The notes beneath the pieces were generated by a model. It did not search any database. It was not told the DNA's origin and saw nothing but the letters and a program-made list of their open reading frames with translations. From Lichina pygmaea (Eukaryota > Ascomycota > Lichinomycetes > Lichinales > Lichinaceae): a DNA stretch of 64,000 bases. The number at the start of each line of letters is the position of its first letter. The first letter of the stretch is position 1. A program made the translations under genes and the position numbers. The DNA lies in contig OY730170.1 in assembly GCA_963422465.1 (NCBI GenBank), forward strand, positions 4,068,379 through 4,132,378. The letters are read 5' to 3'. This document shows, piece by piece, positions 15,998-16,498 of this stretch.

Positions 15998-16498
15998 ATG
16001 TCTGCAAAATCATGTGCCTCTGCTTACCAAAACCAACTGGCAGCCCAGATCTGTGATCATAACTTTGTGTCACTTGCTCTGTGTGACTTCTGTGTTTTGA
16101 ACCACAAGCCCTGCTTCCGAATGTCTGACAACAACGATAAGTTGAAGTGCGCTGAATGCACTTGTCGTGGGAAGTCCTGTGTGTCACTCTCTTGGGAGTT
16201 GCTGAACATGACTTGGGATAATCTTCGCGAGGATTTGGCTGTTGATGAGGCCAAGCGGGATACTCTTGTTGAGCAGCTTGCCAAGCTGCAGGCTTGTGTG
16301 TCCCGAAAGCGAAAGGTTCTTGAGGGTGCTGAGGGTCAAGCAAAGAAGAAGCTCCAGTGCCTTGTTGCTGAAATGGAGGCAGATAGTGAAGACTTGTCAG
16401 CGACAGTTATTAACATGTCCGCACTGCAGGCTGAGCTGTTCAGTCCTGCTTCTGCCAGAACTGCTGCAGGAGGAGCTGGCAGTTCGCGAGGTTCCTGA
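15998..16498 (+). CDS. Antisense ORF of G3: Zn2Cys6-like cysteine cluster plus coiled coil
   Basis: This 166-residue ORF lies on the strand opposite to gag-pol, between the 3' LTR and the chromodomain, and its 3' end overlaps the chromodomain coding sequence. Near residues 35-70 it has cysteines spaced C-x2-C-x6-C-x11-C-x2-C-x6-C, exactly the Gal4-type binuclear zinc-cluster pattern, with basic residues inside. From about residue 75 a long charged heptad-like helix follows (VEQLAKLQ, KRKVLEGAE), resembling the linker and coiled-coil dimerisation region of zinc-cluster regulators. The ATG at 15998 was chosen because it lies 45 bp inside the LTR edge, matching the G2 copy; the frame is also open upstream into the LTR. 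A TATAAA on the same strand lies 75 bp upstream, inside the LTR. The fold is inferred from spacing only, and no function is established. Confidence 0.7.
   Translation: MSAKSCASAYQNQLAAQICDHNFVSLALCDFCVLNHKPCFRMSDNNDKLKCAECTCRGKSCVSLSWELLNMTWDNLREDLAVDEAKRDTLVEQLAKLQACVSRKRKVLEGAEGQAKKKLQCLVAEMEADSEDLSATVINMSALQAELFSPASARTAAGGAGSSRGS

Follow-up and report, generated by a model that had tools for sequence, protein, structure and literature searches.

An antisense gene for a predicted Zn2Cys6-like protein, and type-matched U3 arrays beside it, in a chromovirus of Lichina pygmaea

We analysed a 64,000-nucleotide stretch of the Lichina pygmaea genome (hereafter the window; assembly GCA_963422465.1, contig OY730170.1, positions 4,068,379 to 4,132,378 of the forward strand), which holds a Ty3/gypsy chromovirus with an additional open reading frame (ORF) on the strand opposite to gag-pol. 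The product of this antisense ORF (aORF) resembles Zn2Cys6 regulators in its cysteine spacing and predicted fold. Its gene lies in a block that differs between element types and includes the unique 3' region (U3) of the long terminal repeat (LTR), whose repeated half-sites match the type of the zinc cluster. In window coordinates, the element comprises:

15270-21937, minus strand (gag-pol): whole Ty3/gypsy chromovirus, from LTR alignment and Pfam
15265-15269 and 21938-21942: target-site duplication TCACA (5 bp), flanking both LTRs
15270-15953, minus strand: 3' LTR, 684 bp
15506-15512, minus strand: TATATAG, candidate sense (gag-pol) TATA near the border of U3 and the repeated region (R), by eye
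15507-16700: block differing between types A and B (U3, aORF and chromodomain tail), from the sliding comparison
15597-15826: U3 tandem array of the window copy, 42-bp unit x 5.5, with type-A half-sites
15918-15923, plus strand: TATAAA, candidate antisense promoter, 80 bp upstream of the ATG of the aORF
15954-15977, minus strand: polypurine tract adjoining the 3' LTR, CT-rich on the plus strand, where the aORF transcript would be expected to start
15998-16498, plus strand: aORF for the Zn2Cys6-like protein, ATG to TGA, 166 codons, antisense to gag-pol
16082-16180, plus strand: zinc-cluster codons 29-61 with six conserved cysteines, from alignment and structure prediction
16193-16384, plus strand: predicted 64-residue helix (residues 66-129) with a heptad-like hydrophobic pattern, from structure prediction
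16551-16991, minus strand: pol end, SH3-like linker (Pfam SH3_Tf2-1) and start of the chromodomain; the window copy ends here
17007-17477, minus strand: integrase core (Pfam rve, 32.5 bits, just below the cut-off of 32.6)
18312-19118, minus strand: reverse transcriptase in two ORF pieces (Pfam RVT_1; the scan covered 18312-18695)
19161-19739, minus strand: aspartic protease (Pfam)
21296-21937, minus strand: 5' LTR, 642 bp

Protease, reverse transcriptase, integrase and chromodomain in this order, together with the LTRs and the target-site duplication, identify the element as a chromovirus. Its pol is decayed and lies in pieces, with a stop within the chromodomain at 16551. Pfam gave only SH3_Tf2-1 at this end of the window copy; loss of the chromodomain, or its replacement by the aORF, is ruled out by other copies, in which the chromodomain is present (Pfam Chromo, expectation value (E) 3.3e-15 in a piece of locus L018) and continues past 16551, overlapping the aORF over its final ~60 nt. 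Pol and aORF thus converge, their ends overlapping slightly, and the placement of the ORF between chromodomain and 3' LTR, proposed in a first-pass annotation made from the letters, needs correcting in this respect. The 166-codon ORF itself is present as described there; antisense to gag-pol and situated between pol and the 3' LTR, it has the position of an aORF-3R. An upstream in-frame ATG (15923) was rejected as the start: it overlaps the TATA box and precedes the expected transcript start, and the ORFs of the two other element types described below align from 15998. Many homologues also align from this position, and some database predictions (P0008 and others) begin 28 residues upstream.

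The persistence of the ORF in other copies had been proposed as a check on its significance, and the copies scored retain it. In the genome from which the window comes (32.47 Mb in 8 contigs) there were 511 candidates, of which all 150 scored matched the aORF; 26 of these have no stop, and in the remainder the stops are mostly TGA. A parallel search with the integrase gave 1026 candidates (150 scored), and when the 30 best copies were compared by eye with the aORF matches listed, 26 had a listed aORF on the opposite strand at a distance of 0.95-1.01 kb; the remaining 4 were not among the matches listed. Forty loci were fetched: 25 stop-free copies of the window's type, a choice that biases this set to open copies, and, in match-list order, the leading 15 of a second type. 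The pol end and integrase adjoin the aORF on the opposite strand in 38 of the 40 (L044 has part of the integrase and L047 no pol). Three element types can be distinguished in the genome: A, which includes the window copy, B, whose aORF protein (14 loci) is 61-67% identical to that of the window, and C, comprising L044 (the fifteenth locus of the second set) and L069, a 5'-truncated copy.

Between these types the aORF is clearly constrained. With L047 dropped, the ratio of nonsynonymous to synonymous divergence (dN/dS) is 0.165 for A-B (26 x 13 copies), 0.139 for A-C (26 x 1) and 0.246 for B-C (13 x 1), values that are approximate, since a synonymous divergence (dS) of ~1.25 is near saturation; the A-B ratio of the integrase is 0.166. 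Four of the other five frames of the aORF give 1.08-1.77; frame -2, in which the third positions coincide, gives 0.27-0.29, and no minus-strand frame is open through the stretch in the window copy. Homologues from outside this genome (the P0007-P0018 group) are 57-59% identical, and distant proteins 36-47%. That the aORF is a constrained gene is, in our judgement, close to certain. The opposite explanation, that in a decayed element the frame is open and the cysteines are so spaced by chance alone, could appeal to the broken pol of the window copy and to an unusually cysteine-rich protein (11 of 166 residues); it is ruled out by the low between-type ratios and by the homologues inside and outside the genome, and we give it almost no credence. 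Nor do we think it probable that the antisense RNA is what matters, through double-stranded RNA or interference with gag-pol, the protein being incidental. Such action of antisense transcription in LTR elements has been proposed (in the accessible part of PMC7264820), and the tail-to-tail overlap could yield double-stranded RNA, but the strong amino-acid constraint in the aORF frame argues against this explanation.

The anatomy of the element is readable outside this genome from two proteins: P0008 stays in frame through the stretch equal to the LTR edge of the window element, and P0052 continues into sequence that shares 72% identity, across 50 residues, with the plus-strand translation crossing into the chromodomain antisense. 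Among 14 viral and 33 prokaryote-genome pattern matches from other DNA collections no aORF relative was confirmed, so the U3 is visible in this genome only.

The cysteines at residues 29, 32, 39, 51, 54 and 61 of the window protein follow exactly C-x2-C-x6-C-x11-C-x2-C-x6-C, a spacing that was correctly placed at first pass within the Zn2Cys6 consensus (C-x2-C-x6-C-x5..12-C-x2-C-x6..8-C) and that arose by chance in 14 of 200,000 shuffles of this protein. In an alignment of the family, 32 of 48 rows fit a slightly widened pattern, the others being partial or lacking one cysteine; in P0124, 7-8 residues replace the first x6. Types A, B and C, homologues outside this genome and distant homologues all keep the spacing. 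Almost no variation is seen in the six cluster cysteines; with the between-type dN/dS this bears out constraint on the frame and on the cysteines, the latter being a check that the annotation had asked for. Other cysteines are variable, Cys 121 apart. This residue, located in the long helix outside the cluster, is conserved like the cluster itself (40/40 genomic copies and 40/40 alignment rows), and is perhaps an inter-subunit contact.

The fold predicted for the protein agrees with a zinc cluster. It includes, after the cysteine block, the heptad-like helix anticipated earlier, predicted at a local distance difference score (pLDDT) of 94-99 over residues 71-120; in 12 family members two heptad phases are hydrophobic at 0.72 and 0.52, and the remaining ones at 0.12-0.35. 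An RKRKV motif conserved in the helix region resembles, by eye, a nuclear signal. When the predicted fold was compared with the PDB using Foldseek, all 13 matches were Zn2Cys6 regulators, each weakly scored. A PDB sequence search with the aORF protein returned one unrelated weak match (E 0.66), and one with the family profile six weak matches, Ppr1 among them at E 8.4; NCBIfam and BFVD gave nothing useful (best BFVD E 0.38). The protein very probably has a Zn2Cys6-like cluster and a long helix, the latter probably a coiled coil, and its description as transcription-factor-like is supported.

Types A and B differ in one block. Sliding comparisons were made with 26 A and 14 B rows (L047 dropped, L044 counted as B) and again with 26 A and 13 B rows, C being kept apart. 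In R and the unique 5' region (U5; 15262-15480) the A-B likeness is 0.95, the same as within types. At the U3 edge identity falls from 0.79 (15481-15520) to 0.39 (15521-15580); it is 0.51-0.70 over 15500-15999 in 100-base steps, 0.69-0.71 across the greater part of the aORF, and segments of 16441-16700 give 0.74-0.93. The inner border is marked by a rise from 0.74 (16651-16700) to 0.93 (16701-16750), beyond which pol shows 0.90-0.95 from 16701 to 17000 and 0.85-0.95 over 16800-19199, as within types. In pol, type C is about equally distant from A and B (dS 0.45 and 0.47), whereas its aORF is nearer to B (dS 0.51, versus 1.29 for A-C). Type A is therefore most simply read as a B-like pol that has received a foreign block, a comparison behind which a single C copy stands. 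In reverse transcription U3 is derived from the 3' end of the RNA and R-U5 from its 5' end, so a single template switch accounts for both borders. Locus L072 reads, by translation, as a chimera with an A-type zinc cluster and a B-like tail; L073, considered as a second chimera, reads mainly as a diverged A element.

The U3 part of the block contains tandem arrays in the other types also: 50-bp x 3.8 in B (L049), and 50-bp x 3.1 (L069) and x 2.2 (L044) in C. Each type has its own repeated inverted half-sites, GTCTYRA/TYRAGAC in A, GYRAGC/GCTCRC in B and GCTYRA/TYRAGC in C. They were counted in 57 unique loci, 56 of which were scored, L033 being without an adjoining LTR. The 40 A copies have 5-16 A sites each and no B sites, and each of the 14 B copies, L047 among them, has 9-20 B sites and no A sites; the two C copies have 7 and 9 C sites, with 4 and 7 B sites and 1 A site each. 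Base shuffles gave means of 0.1-0.8. L073, with its A cluster, has 13 A sites, no B and 1 C, and the chimeric L072 has an A array with 12 A sites, no B and 1 C. Thus, in each of the 58 loci with an adjoining LTR, the half-site type that prevails is that of the zinc cluster.

The array is enclosed by candidate promoter signals. In all 38 A and B copies with an adjoining LTR and a start found by the pattern (excluding L033, without an LTR, and L051, whose start is off the pattern), a plus-strand TATA is situated between -75 and -82 relative to the aORF start and 31-35 bp ahead of the final base of the LTR, and this position is kept although A and B are just 0.61-0.70 identical over 15800-15999. 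With antisense and sense TATA at its opposite ends, the U3 looks like a two-way promoter around the array. The antisense TATA is present in the 5' LTR too (21890-21937), where it would face outward into host DNA.

The best reading of these observations, to which the sequences give slightly better than an even chance, is that the element encodes its own Zn2Cys6-like regulator, which travels with its binding sites. The aORF would be transcribed antisense to gag-pol from the TATA promoter at the inner U3 edge of the 3' LTR, its RNA starting close to the edge of the LTR, within the CT-rich strand opposite the polypurine tract. Its product would be a homodimeric nuclear Zn2Cys6-like DNA-binding protein, and it is reasonably probable that its target would be the tandem array of half-sites carried in U3 by elements of the same type. 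Since the array sits between divergent promoters, that of gag-pol in the 5' LTR and that of the aORF in the 3' LTR, both would come under the control of the protein. We guess, tentatively, that it switches gag-pol on and also regulates itself; the sign of regulation is equally a guess. The adjacency of U3 and aORF at the RNA 3' end means that one template switch would move regulator and sites together. Regulator and matched array, the latter similar to an upstream activating sequence, may then form one exchangeable cassette, types A, B and C acting on their own kind only and template-switch exchange placing new types on old pol; we regard this extension as evenly balanced. The earlier suggestion that the element regulates itself gains support from the U3/aORF block and the type matching, while binding and expression stay putative.

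The chief rival is that the protein is a real Zn2Cys6-like binder of DNA or chromatin whose target is not its own U3; it could instead act on host promoters, cooperate with the chromodomain in directing integration, or bring the element into the nucleus, and the U3 matching would reflect neighbours exchanged as one tract. One template switch near 16700 yields both borders without any function, and the aORF overlaps the chromodomain tail. The arrays, however, are type-specific and yet, by eye, all three types build them alike from repeated inverted half-sites, and this suggests that a dedicated protein binds them; in L072, the chimera, the U3 agrees with the cluster part of the aORF, as linkage would also predict. 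We consider this rival rather unlikely.

Several points weigh against a self-encoded regulator of the U3. The half-site counts describe rather than test, because the patterns were chosen by eye from the sequences counted and tandem units repeat the sites; the 58 loci are not independent, there being only three types with U3 and aORF adjacent; and this adjacency alone would hold the two together, so type matching is no proof of binding. B-type sites (4 and 7) lie inside the arrays of both C copies. In these copies (L044 and L069) the adjoining LTR is inverted relative to A and B, so that the antisense TATA faces away from the aORF and the sense TATA would face it. Within types dN/dS is weaker (0.50 in A, 0.34 in B), as expected if copies decay after insertion. 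As to the protein, no Pfam family was found in that of the window, and the proposed check against the Zn_clus profile gave sub-threshold matches only: hits for 10 of the 21 family members were weak (E up to 10), the best reaching 18.7 bits against a cut-off of 21. Taken singly, the structural Z values and the Foldseek E-values are weak; the predicted template modelling score (pTM) is 0.43. Moreover, the basic residues between Cys 2 and Cys 3, an invariant R and K in five aligned yeast proteins, are missing in the aORF family; in Gal4-type proteins such residues contact CGG, and they are typical of Zn2Cys6 proteins, though not strictly defining.

Further features of the window concern other steps of transposition or other elements. 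The stretch behind the 5' LTR at 21220-21300 (minus strand), TTGAAGAC, is complementary to the R stretch GTCTTCAA, making it a candidate for Tf1-type self-priming. Two elements resembling long interspersed nuclear elements (LINEs) lie on the minus strand: one, at 7768-10895, has an endonuclease and a reverse transcriptase by Pfam, and the gag-like ORF of the other, at 11910-13615, matched no family in a Pfam scan and has CCHC-like motifs by eye.

If the preferred reading of a self-encoded regulator is true, a fungal genome with ~500 candidate copies holds a selfish transcription network whose LTRs spread sites beside host genes, and cassette exchange lets retrotransposons alter their regulation without altering pol.

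Among known systems, the Zn2Cys6 regulators Gal4, Ppr1, Put3, Hap1 and Leu3 share with the aORF protein the six-cysteine spacing, the predicted fold and a helix after the cluster. Unlike Gal4-type proteins, the latter has a long loop between Cys 3 and Cys 4 and almost no linker before the helix, and it is without the basic residues that usually lie between Cys 2 and Cys 3; its candidate half-sites are not CGG, and it stays below the Pfam cut-off. The U3 layout recalls GAL1-10, in which repeated half-sites lie between divergent promoters. HBZ, a basic leucine zipper (bZIP) protein, is, like the proposed aORF product, a nuclear regulator made antisense from a 3' LTR; it belongs to an animal retrovirus, human T-cell leukaemia virus (HTLV), and homology is not expected. 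Another antisense gene of a fungal LTR element, brtn, is reportedly due to Zhao et al. (2011). In the accessible parts of the literature, HBZ and APH-2 of HTLV are named (PMC11963269) and an antisense promoter is placed in the HTLV 3' LTR (PMC7264820), while brtn, found in Boty-like chromoviruses of Botrytis cinerea, appears in a list of ORFs located between pol and the 3' LTR (PMC8365987, PMC7264820). We liken brtn to the aORF by these partial descriptions, in which, unlike here, a matching U3 is not mentioned. Plants have antisense extra ORFs in Grande (gene23), RIRE2, PvRetro13 and Retand, the last with a TRP28 domain; the Grande protein is nuclear (PMC7264820, PMC11963269, as excerpted), and for Retand a DNA-binding regulator has already been proposed (PMC11963269, likewise). 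Their domains differ from that of the aORF, and matched exchange of ORF and U3 is not described in the portions of PMC7264820 and PMC11963269 available. The open-access literature searched contained no zinc-cluster antisense ORF in an LTR element, and none with a matched U3, in line with the first impression that no such ORF with a fungal zinc cluster was known. Within that literature, antisense extra ORFs themselves are known, and what is new is the zinc-cluster fold and the type-matched block of U3 and regulator. The function of antisense ORFs beside the 3' LTR in plants and Botrytis is described as open (PMC7264820, in part); for the aORF the question is directly testable, because its DNA-binding fold is recognisable and candidate sites can be named. 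If our interpretation is true, the U3-adjacent antisense position that it shares with plant and other fungal elements would also be explained, as the sole place where regulator and U3 are inherited together.
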